A stretch of 64,000 bases of DNA, taken from positions 806,001-870,000 of the forward strand of contig NZ_ANLA01000004.1 of assembly GCF_000348685.1 (NCBI RefSeq), written 5' to 3'. A model generated the notes under the pieces. The model searched no databases and had not been told where the DNA came from. It was given only the letters and a program-made list of their open reading frames with translations. The stretch comes from Xanthomarina gelatinilytica. Its GTDB lineage: Bacteria; Bacteroidota; Bacteroidia; Flavobacteriales; Flavobacteriaceae. Positions within the stretch are counted from its first letter, which is position 1; the number at the start of each line of letters is the position of its first letter. Of the stretch, positions 9,280-13,729 are shown piece by piece. The translations under genes and the position numbers were made by a program.

Positions 9280-9349
9280 AAAACGCTTAGATTTTTTGTA
9301 AAAATAACTAATTCGTAAACGATTTCAATTAAAAAAAAGTCTTTCCATT

Positions 9350-9378
9350 TTGTTTTTTCAAATTATTGCTTACATTAG
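9350..9378 (+). promoter_or_regulatory. Candidate promoter of the aromatic leader transcript
   Basis: TTG at 9350-9352, then 18 bases, then TACATTAG at 9371-9378, one mismatch from TAnnTTTG. A start near 9385 would give a leader of about 90 bases before the leader-peptide ATG. Placement fits the attenuator, but the -7 box is imperfect. Confidence 0.4.
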
Positions 9379-9390
9379 CTGCCGCATTAT

Positions 9391-9445
9391 GAAACAGTCA
9401 AGCTAAAGAGCTTAACATCCAAAGGAATGATTATAAAGCTGTTTC
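9391..9445 (+). other. Possible 5' stem-loop in the aromatic leader RNA
   Basis: GAAACAG (9391-9397) pairs with CTGTTTC (9439-9445), and inside it AAGCT/AGCTT (9400-9413) forms a small hairpin. It precedes the leader peptide and could affect RNA stability or ribosome loading. No family match was recognised. Confidence 0.35.
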
Positions 9446-9476
9446 AAGTGGCAAATTTTAGCCGTAAAATAAGCAC

Positions 9477-9563
9477 ATGAAAACAACTACGCATTTTACA
9501 TATTATAACTGGTATTATTTCTTTTTTAGCAGAAGAAACGAGACCCTATATATGTATATGTAA
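9477..9563 (+). CDS. Aromatic leader peptide (28 aa, Tyr/Trp/Phe-rich)
   Basis: ATG at 9477 opens a 28-codon frame ending in TAA at 9561-9563. Residues 7-17 read FTYYNWYYFFF: four Tyr, one Trp and four Phe codons in eleven, then SRRNE and a short LYMYM tail. This is the design of an amino-acid-sensing leader such as PheL or TrpL of enterobacteria. The next gene is prephenate dehydratase, the committed step to phenylalanine, followed by tyrA and DAHP synthase. The peptide is too short for normal gene calling and has no other apparent function than to make ribosomes stall when charged aromatic tRNAs are scarce (inference from architecture). No Shine-Dalgarno sequence is obvious, as is common in this phylum. 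Confidence 0.88.
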   Translation: MKTTTHFTYYNWYYFFFSRRNETLYMYM

Positions 9564-9615
9564 AGATTAATAATATATGTTAAAAAGTCTCGATATAAAT
9601 CGGGACTTTTTTTTT
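9518..9615 (+). promoter_or_regulatory. Transcription attenuator of the aromatic operon
   Basis: Four pairing segments are visible. Segment 1 is TTTCTT (9518-9523), in the Phe codons. Segment 2 is AAGAAACGAGAC (9533-9544). Segment 3 is GTCTCG (9587-9592). Segment 4 is the right terminator arm ATCGGGACTTTT (9599-9610). 1:2 pairs as TTTCTT/AAGAAA. 2:3 pairs as CGAGAC/GTCTCG and forms the antiterminator. 3:4 is the terminator. Stalling on the Tyr/Phe codons would break 1:2 and favour 2:3, allowing read-through into pheA. Rapid translation covers segment 2 and lets 3:4 form. Pairings are read from the sequence; the regulatory behaviour is inference. Confidence 0.85.
9583..9615 (+). terminator. 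Intrinsic terminator of the aromatic attenuator
   Basis: A 12-bp stem AAAAGTCTCGAT / ATCGGGACTTTT with one T-G wobble and an ATAA loop, running into a T tract (9607-9615). It lies 30 bases before the TTG start of pheA and after the leader-peptide stop. Confidence 0.9.
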
Positions 9616-9644: not shown

Positions 9645-10472
9645 TTGATAAAAACAGTTGCCATACAGGGAGTCAAAGGGTCTTTTCATCATATTGTATC
9701 TCAGCAATATTTTGAAAATCAAGTAACTGTAAAAGAGTGTTTAACTTTCGATGAGGCTGTGCAAAGTCTCATTTTAGACCAAACAGATGCTGTAGTTATG
9801 GCTTTGGAAAACTCGATTGCAGGATCTATTATTCCAAATTATGCTTTAATTGATAACCATAATTTACACATAGTTGGCGAACATTATTTAGATGTACAAC
9901 ATCATTTAATGGCTTTGCCAAATCAGGATATCAACGATATTGTTGAAGTTTATTCACATCCTATGGCTTTGTTGCAATGCAAGGAATTCTTTAAAAAACA
10001 CCCGCACATTAAACTGGTTGAAGATAAAGATACAGCTGAAGTGGCACAGCGTATTCAAAGTAAAAACATCAAAGGGGTTGCGGCCATAGCAAGTAAATTG
10101 GCTTCAGAACTATTTAACTTGAACATTCTTGCCGAAAGCATTCAAACCATAAAACATAACGAAACACGCTTTGTAATTGTTAAAAAAGAAAATCATGAAA
10201 TCTCAGAAGAAGAAATCAACAAAGCATCTATAAAATTCGAATTAGAACATAAAAGAGGCAGTTTGGCAGCCATGTTGAATGTAATGAGCGATTGTAAATT
10301 GAACTTAACCAAAATACAATCTTTACCAAAAATGGAAACACCATGGAAATACGCTTTTTTTATTGATGTGACATTTGATGTGTATGAAGATTATAAAAAA
10401 GCAATTTCCATTATGGAAATCATGACTGAAGATTTTAAAATATTAGGAGAATATAAAAAAGCAAAACCATGA
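9645..10472 (+). CDS. pheA: Prephenate dehydratase
   Basis: Converts prephenate to phenylpyruvate. The 275 residues have the two-lobed dehydratase domain with ALENSIAGSI (about 53-62) and the catalytic-site TRF motif in NETRFVIV (Thr174). A C-terminal ACT domain carries KRGSLAAMLNVM, the usual phenylalanine feedback site. The start is TTG at 9645: MIKTVAIQGVKGSF aligns with the family N terminus and no upstream in-frame ATG exists after the terminator. First gene of the operon, directly behind the attenuator. Its stop overlaps the aminotransferase start (ATGA), so translation is coupled. Confidence 0.95.
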   Translation: MIKTVAIQGVKGSFHHIVSQQYFENQVTVKECLTFDEAVQSLILDQTDAVVMALENSIAGSIIPNYALIDNHNLHIVGEHYLDVQHHLMALPNQDINDIVEVYSHPMALLQCKEFFKKHPHIKLVEDKDTAEVAQRIQSKNIKGVAAIASKLASELFNLNILAESIQTIKHNETRFVIVKKENHEISEEEINKASIKFELEHKRGSLAAMLNVMSDCKLNLTKIQSLPKMETPWKYAFFIDVTFDVYEDYKKAISIMEIMTEDFKILGEYKKAKP

Positions 10473-11611
10473 TTGAAGCTGCAAAAAGATTGCAAAGCAT
10501 TGAAGAATACTACTTTTCGAAAAAACTTCGGGAAGTTAGGCTGTTGGAAGCCAATGGCAAACCAATCATTAATTTGGGCATTGGAAGCCCAGACCTTCAA
10601 CCACCACAGAGTGTCATTACAGCCTTGGGCAAAAGTTTTGAAGCCATACAGGCAAACCAATATCAAAGCTATCAAGGTTTGCCGGAACTTCGCGAAGCCA
10701 TTGTCTCTTTTTATAGAGACCAGTTTCAGGTGTATTTAAGCCCAACTACTGAAGTCTTGCCATTAATGGGAAGCAAAGAGGGCATTATGCACATTTCCAT
10801 GGCTTTTTTAAATCATGGAGATCAAGTGCTTATTCCAAATCCAGGATATCCAACCTATGCTTCTGTAACAAAATTACTTGGTGCAAAGCCAGTATTTTAC
10901 AATTTAAACGAAACAAATAATTGGATGCCAGATTTGGAAGTATTAGAAAGTCAAGACTTATCCAAGGTAAAAATGATGTGGGTGAATTATCCTCATATGC
11001 CAACAGGAGCCATTGCGACCGAAGCTTTTTTTACAAGATTGATTGCCTTTGCGAAACGGCATCGTATTTTAATTGTGAATGATAATCCGTATGGTTTTAT
11101 TTTAAACGATTCCCCTAAAAGTATCTTGAGTATTCCAGGAGCAAAAGACGTTTGTTTGGAGCTGAACTCTTTAAGTAAAACCTTTAATATGTCTGGTTGG
11201 AGAGTTGGGATGGTTTTAGGGAAATCAGACTACATCAATCATGTTTTAAAAGTAAAAAGCAATATGGATTCTGGCATGTTTTACGGTATTCAAAAAGGAG
11301 CCATAGAAGCCTTAAGGTGCTCCAAATTATGGTATGCCAGTTTAAATCAAGTTTATCGGGAAAGACGAAAACTCATCTGGCAGCTGGCAGATAGCTTAAA
11401 CTGCAGGTATGATAAAAAAGCAACTGGATTGTTTGTTTGGGCAAAAGTTCCAGACTTGTTTACATCAGAGGAGTTTATTGATTTATTGTTAAAAGAAAAA
11501 AACATTTTTATAGCTCCAGGGACTGTTTTTGGAAGCCAAGGAGAAGGCTATGTTAGGTTTTCACTTTGTGCAACCACAGATGTTATTGAAGAAGCCATTG
11601 CGAGGCTATAA
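10469..11611 (+). CDS. PLP-dependent class I/II aminotransferase of the aromatic operon
   Basis: A 380-residue fold-type I aminotransferase. PLP-binding features are NPGYPTY, NDNPYGF (Asp205, Tyr208) and the Schiff-base Lys237 in SLSKTFNMSGWRVG. The usual NYPNNPTG loop reads NYPHMPTG here, a small deviation. Its position between pheA and tyrA, with an ATGA overlap to pheA, suggests it transaminates phenylpyruvate and 4-hydroxyphenylpyruvate, or prephenate. Sequence alone cannot separate this from aspartate, methionine or LL-diaminopimelate type specificity. Confidence 0.88.
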   Translation: MIEAAKRLQSIEEYYFSKKLREVRLLEANGKPIINLGIGSPDLQPPQSVITALGKSFEAIQANQYQSYQGLPELREAIVSFYRDQFQVYLSPTTEVLPLMGSKEGIMHISMAFLNHGDQVLIPNPGYPTYASVTKLLGAKPVFYNLNETNNWMPDLEVLESQDLSKVKMMWVNYPHMPTGAIATEAFFTRLIAFAKRHRILIVNDNPYGFILNDSPKSILSIPGAKDVCLELNSLSKTFNMSGWRVGMVLGKSDYINHVLKVKSNMDSGMFYGIQKGAIEALRCSKLWYASLNQVYRERRKLIWQLADSLNCRYDKKATGLFVWAKVPDLFTSEEFIDLLLKEKNIFIAPGTVFGSQGEGYVRFSLCATTDVIEEAIARL

Positions 11612-11705: not shown

Positions 11706-12557
11706 ATGAGAAACATATACATAATAGGAGTTGGTTTAATTGGAGGTAGCATTGCCAAAGATGTTAAAAAATTGAATCCAGGGATTTCAATTCATGGAAT
11801 TGATGCAAACGAAACCCATTTACAAGAAGCATTAACTTTAAAACTAATTGATAAAAAAGCAAATTTCGAAGATTTAAAACATGCTGATTTGGTGATTGTT
11901 TCCATTCCTGTAGATGCAACAGAAACCTTGTTGCCACATATTTTGGATGTTGTTTCAGAGGATACCTTGGTAATAGATTCCGGTTCCACCAAAGCAAGCA
12001 TTTGCAAAGCAGTAGCGAAACATCCAAAAAGGAGAAATTTTTTAGCCACACACCCTATTGCAGGAACTGAATTTTCGGGACCAAAAGCTGCTGTGGAAGG
12101 TTTGTTCATGAACAAAACAAACATCATTTGCGAAATAGAAAAAACAGCTTTTAAATTGCAAGAGCGCGCTTTAACCATTTTCAAGATTATGGGAATGAAC
12201 ATGCGTTATATGAATCCGGAAGCCCATGACAAACACATAGCTTATGTATCGCATTTATCCCATATAAGTGCTTTTATGTTAGGGAAAACAGTTATTGAGA
12301 AAGAAAAAAACGAACGTGATATTTTCGATTTGGCAGGAAGTGGCTTTGCTTCAACAGTAAGATTGGCGAAAAGTTCACCACATATGTGGACACCCATTTT
12401 CAAACAAAATAAAGTTAATGTTATTGAAACTTTAGATGAGTATATAAACAATCTTGTTAAATTTAAGGAGTTTATGCAAACCGATAATTTTGATGCCATT
12501 TTTAAGGATATGGAAAACACAAACCATATAAAAGACATATTAAACGGAATAAAATAA
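11706..12557 (+). CDS. tyrA: Prephenate dehydrogenase
   Basis: NAD(P)-dependent oxidative decarboxylation of prephenate to 4-hydroxyphenylpyruvate, the tyrosine branch. The 283 residues start with the Rossmann motif IIGVGLIGGSIAKD (Gly8-x-Gly10-xx-Gly13). Later blocks are VIDSGSTKASIC, THPIAGTEFSGP and the helical dimerisation domain with HDKHIAYVSHLSHISAF, containing the conserved histidines. No ACT or chorismate mutase domain is attached; the mutase is fused to the next gene instead. Third gene of the operon, separated from the aminotransferase by 94 bases holding a hairpin. Confidence 0.95.
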   Translation: MRNIYIIGVGLIGGSIAKDVKKLNPGISIHGIDANETHLQEALTLKLIDKKANFEDLKHADLVIVSIPVDATETLLPHILDVVSEDTLVIDSGSTKASICKAVAKHPKRRNFLATHPIAGTEFSGPKAAVEGLFMNKTNIICEIEKTAFKLQERALTIFKIMGMNMRYMNPEAHDKHIAYVSHLSHISAFMLGKTVIEKEKNERDIFDLAGSGFASTVRLAKSSPHMWTPIFKQNKVNVIETLDEYINNLVKFKEFMQTDNFDAIFKDMENTNHIKDILNGIK

Positions 12558-12646: not shown

Positions 12647-13729
12647 ATGGAAAACAAAAAAGAATTAAGACACTGGTTAAATGCCTTCGGGTTAGAGCAT
12701 CCATTGGTTATTGCAGGACCTTGTAGCGCAGAGACTGAAGAACAGGTTTTAAATATAGCCCATCAATTGAAGGATAGTGATACAACAGTTTTAAGAGCAG
12801 GAATCTGGAAACCAAGAACACGACCTGGAAATTTTGAAGGAGTAGGAGCCTTGGGCTTAAAGTGGTTGCAAAAAGCCAAAGAAGAAACAGGCTTGTTAAC
12901 AGCCACAGAAGTTGCCAATGCCACTCATGTGGATTTGGCGCTGCAACATGATGTAGATGTGTTGTGGATTGGTGCCAGAACAACGGTCAGTCCGTTTATA
13001 GTTCAGGAAATTGCAGAAGCTTTAAAAGGAACCGACAAAATAGTGTTGGTGAAAAACCCTGTAAATCCAGATTTGGCTTTGTGGTTGGGAGCTGTAGAGC
13101 GTTTTTACGCCTCAGGAATCAATAATCTGGGAGTGATCCACAGAGGTTTTTCAACCTATGAAAAAACCAGGTATAGAAACAATCCAGAATGGCAATTACC
13201 AATCGATTTACAAAACAGGTTTCCAGACTTGCCACTTATTTTAGATCCTTCGCATATAGCTGGACGTAGGGATATTATTTTCGATTTATGCCAAACGGCT
13301 CTCGATTTGAATTATGATGGCTTAATGATAGAAACACATCACCAACCTGATAAGGCTTGGAGTGATGCGTCCCAGCAAATCACACCAAACACGCTTATTC
13401 AGTACACAAAAGATTTACGTATAAGAAAAGAGATAGGTGAAGCTGCAGAATTTAAAAACAAAATAAACACCTTAAGAACGCAAATAGATGTTATAGACCA
13501 TCAATTTATTGAAATGTTAGGAAAACGCATGAAGATTGCCGATGATATAGGAGCTTTAAAAAAAGCACATAATGTGGCCGTTTTACAAACCAAACGTTGG
13601 AACGAGATACTTGGTAAAATGATTCTTCAAGGAGAAGAGAAAAACTTAAGCGAAGAATTTATTTTAAGGCTTTTCAAAGCCATACACCAGGAGTCCATCA
13701 ATCATCAGGAAAAGATTATTAACAAATAA
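12647..13729 (+). CDS. aroG: DAHP synthase (type I, KDO8P-like) fused to chorismate mutase (type II)
   Basis: Two enzymes in one chain: the first step of the shikimate pathway and conversion of chorismate to prephenate. The N-terminal domain carries PLVIAGPCSAETEEQ, AGIWKPRTRPG, LVKNPVNPDL, DPSHIAG and MIETHHQPDKAWSD, the usual metal and substrate motifs. The C-terminal 90 residues (LRTQIDVIDHQFIEMLGKRM and following) are an AroQ-type mutase. The ATG at 12647 (MENKKELR) is preferred over a TTG frame opening at 12620 that overlaps the inverted repeat. With pheA and tyrA it covers both ends of Phe/Tyr synthesis. The fusion is common in Bacteroidota. Confidence 0.94.
   Translation: MENKKELRHWLNAFGLEHPLVIAGPCSAETEEQVLNIAHQLKDSDTTVLRAGIWKPRTRPGNFEGVGALGLKWLQKAKEETGLLTATEVANATHVDLALQHDVDVLWIGARTTVSPFIVQEIAEALKGTDKIVLVKNPVNPDLALWLGAVERFYASGINNLGVIHRGFSTYEKTRYRNNPEWQLPIDLQNRFPDLPLILDPSHIAGRRDIIFDLCQTALDLNYDGLMIETHHQPDKAWSDASQQITPNTLIQYTKDLRIRKEIGEAAEFKNKINTLRTQIDVIDHQFIEMLGKRMKIADDIGALKKAHNVAVLQTKRWNEILGKMILQGEEKNLSEEFILRLFKAIHQESINHQEKIINK

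Follow-up and report, generated by a model that had tools for sequence, protein, structure and literature searches.

Directly before the enterobacterial pheA gene lies a leader, PheL (Rfam RF01859), in which a Phe-rich peptide accompanies a choice between antiterminator and terminator; PheL is a Phe-only system. A leader of Bacteroidota that likewise combines regulatory codons with a terminator, Bacteroid-trp (Rfam RF01692), was predicted by Weinberg et al. 2010 (PMC2864571). According to Guerin et al. 2021 (PMC9723704), a structured 5′ element conserved in the family lies upstream of pheA in Flavobacterium psychrophilum, and there are clues of leader-peptide attenuation before amino-acid operons. 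Here we analysed a 64,000-nt stretch of the Xanthomarina gelatinilytica genome (GCF_000348685.1, contig NZ_ANLA01000004.1, positions 806,001 to 870,000, forward strand; hereafter the window), in which a short open reading frame (ORF) rich in aromatic codons and a hairpin followed by a T tract precede pheA. With a probability of roughly 93%, we read this element as a classical ribosome-mediated transcription attenuator for Phe and Tyr. Ribosome-mediated attenuation before pheA had been put forward in a preliminary description of the same DNA, and is now strongly supported by conserved aromatic codons and covarying RNA segments.

Conservation and coding constraint of the leader

Of 251 sampled Flavobacteriaceae genomes, 232 contained pheA; 130 pheA loci were taken, and 129 were analysed in detail. 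An ORF with 7–10 aromatic residues in 12 was found within ~420 nt of pheA in 129 of the 130 family loci. The exception, L018 (Gelidibacter type), was considered as a leaderless locus and rejected as such: its leader lies 646 nt upstream, a 110-bp tandem repeat having moved it away from pheA. With this locus included, a leader precedes pheA in 130/130 cases; conservation of the aromatic codons across Flavobacteriaceae had been named as a check in the preliminary description. Tandem repeats of 110 bp lie between the pheA terminator and pheA in L018 (3.8 copies), L221 and L231, all of the Gelidibacter type, and push the leader 540–650 nt upstream.

The leader peptides fall into two main classes, TYYNWFYFFFSKRNETLYV and YFWNGFYFYFFFKRGTGLL. 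The same scan was positive in 76 of 80 named genomes, a second set partly overlapping the first; among the other four, one locus was cut by a contig end, one had a slightly altered but visible leader and two had the leader farther upstream.

The ORF, for which translation is predicted, clusters codons for the operon's own amino acids in all 130 loci, and the constraint on its codons is evident from their third positions. Across the last ten codons of the aromatic run in the 129 leaders, every one of 941 TTN or TAN codons ends in T or C and hence encodes Phe or Tyr, while the other two frames of the same stretch contain many TTA, TAA and TAG (Leu and stop) codons. Length differences in the aligned run region are mostly whole codons.

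Beyond this sample, 40 more pheA loci were analysed (39 from other families of the class and order, and one from a divergent family member). About 29 of the 40 carried an ORF with at least five aromatic residues in 12, and in 27 of those 29 the 5′ arm of the terminator had a complement 7–14 nt past the last aromatic codon, some of these assignments being less clean; the weaker leaders among the further Bacteroidia loci are less certain. Families f12 and f15 mostly lack the leader, one f15 member having it. The predicted switch is common to every family member examined and to most related families with pheA, and its occurrence is far beyond chance. When the window genome was searched with the family RNA model (R1), one convincing copy was returned; the next best matches were weak, one of them being the opposite strand of the same hairpin.

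RNA pairings, ribosome spacing and 5′ region

Segment 3, located between the leader and pheA, can pair either with segment 2 inside the leader ORF (2:3, the antiterminator) or with segment 4 (3:4, an intrinsic terminator), so that the two structures share an arm. A hairpin terminator was present in 129/129 analysed loci, with a mean folding energy of −13.4 kcal/mol. In the window, the terminator hairpin folds at −13.3 kcal/mol (z-score −7.2) and the 2:3 region at −12.1 kcal/mol (z-score −3.6).

Segments 2, 3 and 4 covary as triples: CGAGAC/GTCTCG/CG(A,G)GAC, CGGGAC/GTCCCG/CGGGAC, CGGAAC/GTTCCG/CGGAAC, CAGGGC/GTCCTG/CAGGGC and TAGGATT/AATCCTG/CAGGATT. Pairing of 2 with 3 was found in 98.6% of cells (mean 94.8% and maximum 96.0% over 1000 column shuffles), and in no more than 40% in slid registers. 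This test was redone with anchored columns, a single MAFFT alignment having put segment 2 one column off between the leader classes; RNAalifold run on that single alignment recovered the terminator only. In a swap test, the 2:3 energy was −10.9 for a leader's own segments and −9.0 after swapping, with no permutation mean below −9.7. For leader hairpin and terminator, both sides had changed in 58 cells, compared with 13.4 in shuffled data. Covariation, named in the preliminary description as a check on its proposal, was thus seen for segments 2, 3 and 4 as well as for the leader hairpin (1:2).

Judging from codon usage and folding, synonymous sites of the leader hairpin are under selection. The third codon from the end of the run is TTC in 111 of 116 leaders, compared with 15% of Phe codons in pheA, because TTC pairs in the hairpin, and in 122/129 cases the natural leader is more stably folded than its synonymous versions are on average.

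Three pairings in the window had initially been described as mutually exclusive. This stands for 2:3 and 3:4. However, TTTCTT (9518–9523) with AAGAAA (9533–9538) does not overlap CGAGAC/GTCTCG, and the two can therefore coexist; the first hairpin excludes 2:3 only in an extended form (9511–9525 with 9531–9545), in which GGU at 9511–9513 pairs with ACC at 9543–9545 and covers segment 2. While the 1:2 hairpin itself is conserved, the extension is clear mainly in TGG-TTT/TGG-TAT leaders and mostly not so in the second class. With no ribosome placed on the RNA, the predicted probability of 2:3 pairing, P(2:3), averaged 0.68 over the leaders and was 0.28 in the window. An A/T-rich inner hairpin in the linker between segments 2 and 3 (e.g. 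9550–9580) brings the two together in the fold of 9539–9594, and TTTAT...ATAAA stretches resembling it are visible in many relatives.

The distance from the run to segment 2 is nearly fixed, segment 2 starting 10–11 nt past the last aromatic codon in 122/129 leaders. Each leader was folded to the end of segment 3 with an assumed E. coli-like ribosome footprint kept unpaired, spanning the 18 nt before and the 12 nt after the first A-site base. Mean P(2:3) was 0.93–0.97 for an A site at any position among the twelve codons up to and including the last aromatic one, 0.24 one codon further on, and 0.00 two or more codons past the run or at the stop codon. On this profile, the aromatic run ends at the last codon where a stall could still antiterminate; a ribosome on the run codons would free segment 2 and one at the stop codon would mask it, albeit more weakly in the window species. 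In a few leaders, the stop codon lies 1–3 codons past the run, upstream of segment 2, where the leading edge of a terminating ribosome would still cover segment 2. The window leader ends in LYMYM (9546–9563), compared with LYM or LYV in congeners, and its two extra codons shift the stop codon away from segment 2; the leader of Mangrovimonas yunxiaonensis (L191) ends in LYAYM.

A promoter-like box, TTTTG-N-TTAC(A/T)TTAGC, is conserved just 5′ of the leader in most loci. The ATG follows 9–24 nt beyond it, pointing to a very short 5′ untranslated region (UTR) with no Shine-Dalgarno element. The pattern T-TG N16-22 TAnnTT(A/T)G occurs near the leader in 92/129 loci, versus 0–2 in shuffles. The −7 consensus given in PMC9723704 is TAnnTTTG; a strict search for TTG-N-TAnnTTTG promoters found nothing above chance, the window-type −7 box being TAnnTTAG. 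The window has an additional stretch between promoter and leader ATG (Table 1), which is single copy in its own genome. A five-codon ORF, MKQSS (9389–9406), sits where the leader ATG starts in relatives, and 9385–9480 can fold (−19.2 kcal/mol, z-score −2.2). L068 displays a similar displacement (~90 nt) with another short ORF.

Coordinates are collected in Table 1. Direct reading confirmed the 28-codon leader with nine aromatic codons in eleven, as first described; Pfam domains agree with the earlier assignment of the operon genes, and the terminator stem and T tract reported ahead of pheA were recovered. Gene order and strand of the operon are identical in those relatives' loci that are of sufficient length. 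Xanthomarina spongicola is a close named relative, with an 89% identical PheA, which places the window in the Flavobacteriaceae.

Table 1. Features of the pheA leader region and operon, in window coordinates
Feature	Coordinates	Strand	Details
Predicted primary-sigma promoter	9348–9378	+	TTTTG 9348–9352 and TTACATTAG 9370–9378; Flavobacteriaceae −33/−7 arrangement
88-nt stretch between promoter and leader ATG	9389–9476	+	Alignment of L001, L002 and L003; absent from two congeneric genomes
Leader peptide ORF, MKTTTHFTYYNWYYFFFSRRNETLYMYM*	9477–9563	+	ATG 9477, TAA 9561–9563, 28 codons
Regulatory codon run FTYYNWYYFFF	9495–9527	+	9 aromatic codons in 11; direct reading
Leader hairpin (1:2)	9518–9538	+	UUUCUUUU 9518–9525 with AGAAGAAA 9531–9538; folding, codon usage, covariation
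Segment 2, CGAGAC, antiterminator 5′ half, inside leader ORF	9539–9544	+	Pairs with segment 3
Intrinsic terminator (3:4)	9583–9615	+	Hairpin AAAAGTCTCGAT-ATAA-ATCGGGACTTTT 9583–9610; segment 4 CGGGAC 9601–9606; T tract 9607–9615 (T9)
Segment 3, GTCTCG, common to antiterminator and terminator	9587–9592	+	Pairing, covariation
pheA, prephenate dehydratase (PF00800), first structural gene	9645–10472	+	Pfam; start codon TTG
Class I/II aminotransferase (PF00155)	10469–11611	+	Pfam
tyrA, prephenate dehydrogenase (PF02153, PF20463)	11706–12557	+	Pfam
DAHP synthase-chorismate mutase fusion (PF00793 + PF01817)	12647–13729	+	Pfam

Proposed mechanism and rival explanations

In the mechanism that we propose, RNA polymerase would transcribe the leader with a ribosome behind it translating the leader peptide. 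When charged tRNA-Phe or tRNA-Tyr (perhaps also tRNA-Trp) is scarce, the ribosome would stall in the aromatic run and leave segment 2 free to pair with segment 3 before segment 4 is made; the terminator would then not form, and transcription would read through into pheA, the aminotransferase gene, tyrA and the DAHP synthase/mutase gene. With ample amino acids, the ribosome would pass the run and cover segment 2, 3:4 would form, and transcription would stop at the T tract. In RNA not occupied by a ribosome, segment 2 would be partly hidden by the extended leader hairpin. The sequences themselves show the coding constraint, the covariation of segments 2, 3 and 4, the spacing, the promoter-like box and the operon; that ribosomes stall, in which direction this acts and which amino acids are sensed is what we infer from them.

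Attenuation by a translating ribosome is also supported by His- and Trp-codon leaders with terminator-like hairpins in the same genome. A Trp leader, MKTILNHTWWWNFRNSNFVK, lies with a terminator ~219 nt upstream of the trpE match (L131, G000:C13) and matches the Bacteroid-trp model RF01692 at 53.5 bits (cut-off 49). A His leader, MTFIQLHHHHFHSGTQAS, lies ~221 nt upstream of the hisG match (L134, G000:C10, reverse strand) and is followed by a hairpin, AAACCCGTTTG...CAAACGGGTTT; together they likely form a his attenuator. A match to ilvD was not found in the window genome.

Several observations weigh against the attenuator reading. Tree-aware support for the covariation is limited: well-supported branches offer only 3 independent pairs, of which about 2 agree and none is opposed, an underpowered comparison, and with so few independent compensation events on the pheA tree the covariation is good, not overwhelming, evidence by itself. 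The footprint used in the constrained folding was taken from E. coli. In the window, the leader ORF is two codons longer than in congeners, so that a ribosome at the stop codon would leave segment 2 less well hidden (P(2:3) of 0.26 for L001 with the ribosome there), and the 5′ UTR has 88 nt more.

Phe and Tyr codons are present in 129/129 leaders; a Trp codon is present in 91 and absent in 38, with at least 20 state changes on the pheA tree. The preliminary description had proposed joint control by Phe, Tyr and possibly Trp charging, of which the Phe and Tyr part is supported and the Trp part is weakened. With a separate trpE leader in the genome and a variable Trp codon here, sensing of Phe and Tyr is likely and sensing of Trp is less certain. 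The chances are even that, under the same mechanism, Phe and Tyr charging alone count and the Trp codon is incidental, as its erratic distribution and the dedicated leader before trpE suggest. However, its frequency is above the expectation over 25 codons at ~1% per codon (a general background rate), and the DAHP synthase of this operon serves the synthesis of all three aromatic amino acids.

Much less probable is a TnaC-like arrest, in which the aromatic nascent chain would halt the ribosome on a free amino acid and the codons would not sense tRNA charging. The run is hydrophobic, and free interchange of Phe, Tyr and Trp would be tolerable for an arrest peptide too, but no single non-aromatic residue is fixed in the leaders, the run differs in length and order from one leader class to the other and among families, and an identical layout recurs with His and Trp codons in the same genome. 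Least probable is a plain terminator under protein or small-molecule control (TRAP-like, T-box-like or a riboswitch) with an incidental ORF, which would fit the invariable presence of the terminator but not the uniformly coding-compatible third positions, the Leu- and stop-rich other frames, the fixed spacing that fits a ribosome, or the absence of gathering-level Rfam matches from the window.

Relation to known systems

The proposed ribosome-mediated attenuator before pheA is a regulator of a common type whose present form is little studied and apparently uncatalogued. Because such attenuation works only if a ribosome follows RNA polymerase closely, an attenuator with fixed spacing across Bacteroidia would be strong comparative evidence for transcription-translation coupling there. 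Bacillus subtilis is reported to lack this coupling, a loss that may be widespread (review PMC7858274), and a literature search found no direct work on coupling in Bacteroidota, a group in which ribosomes dispense with Shine-Dalgarno pairing (PMC9976891). We would venture only tentatively the broadest reading, that of a single, Rfam-absent, class-wide Bacteroidia attenuator in which one peptide reads all three aromatic tRNAs, translation proceeds without a Shine-Dalgarno element and usually from a very short 5′ UTR, and the spacing testifies to a ribosome close behind RNA polymerase. The element also predicts how Phe and Tyr synthesis is controlled in a major group of environmental and gut bacteria, and its alignment can serve to define a new RNA family.

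An Rfam scan of the window returned no gathering-level match, and a permissive scan of the leader gave sub-threshold matches only. Bacteroid-trp differs from the present leader in its Trp codons and RNA sequence, and its model did not match the pheA leader (cut-off 49). The F. psychrophilum element is probably the same as the one described here, a comparison made by description only; to this prior art, our analysis adds evidence from codons, covariation and spacing, and a range that extends outside the family. The Phe_leader model RF01859 reached 23.0 bits here against a cut-off of 55, the match being limited to the post-ORF stretch that holds the terminator. Compared with PheL, the window-type leaders always mix Phe and Tyr codons, often with Trp, and the operon that follows adds tyrA, an aminotransferase and DAHP synthase.
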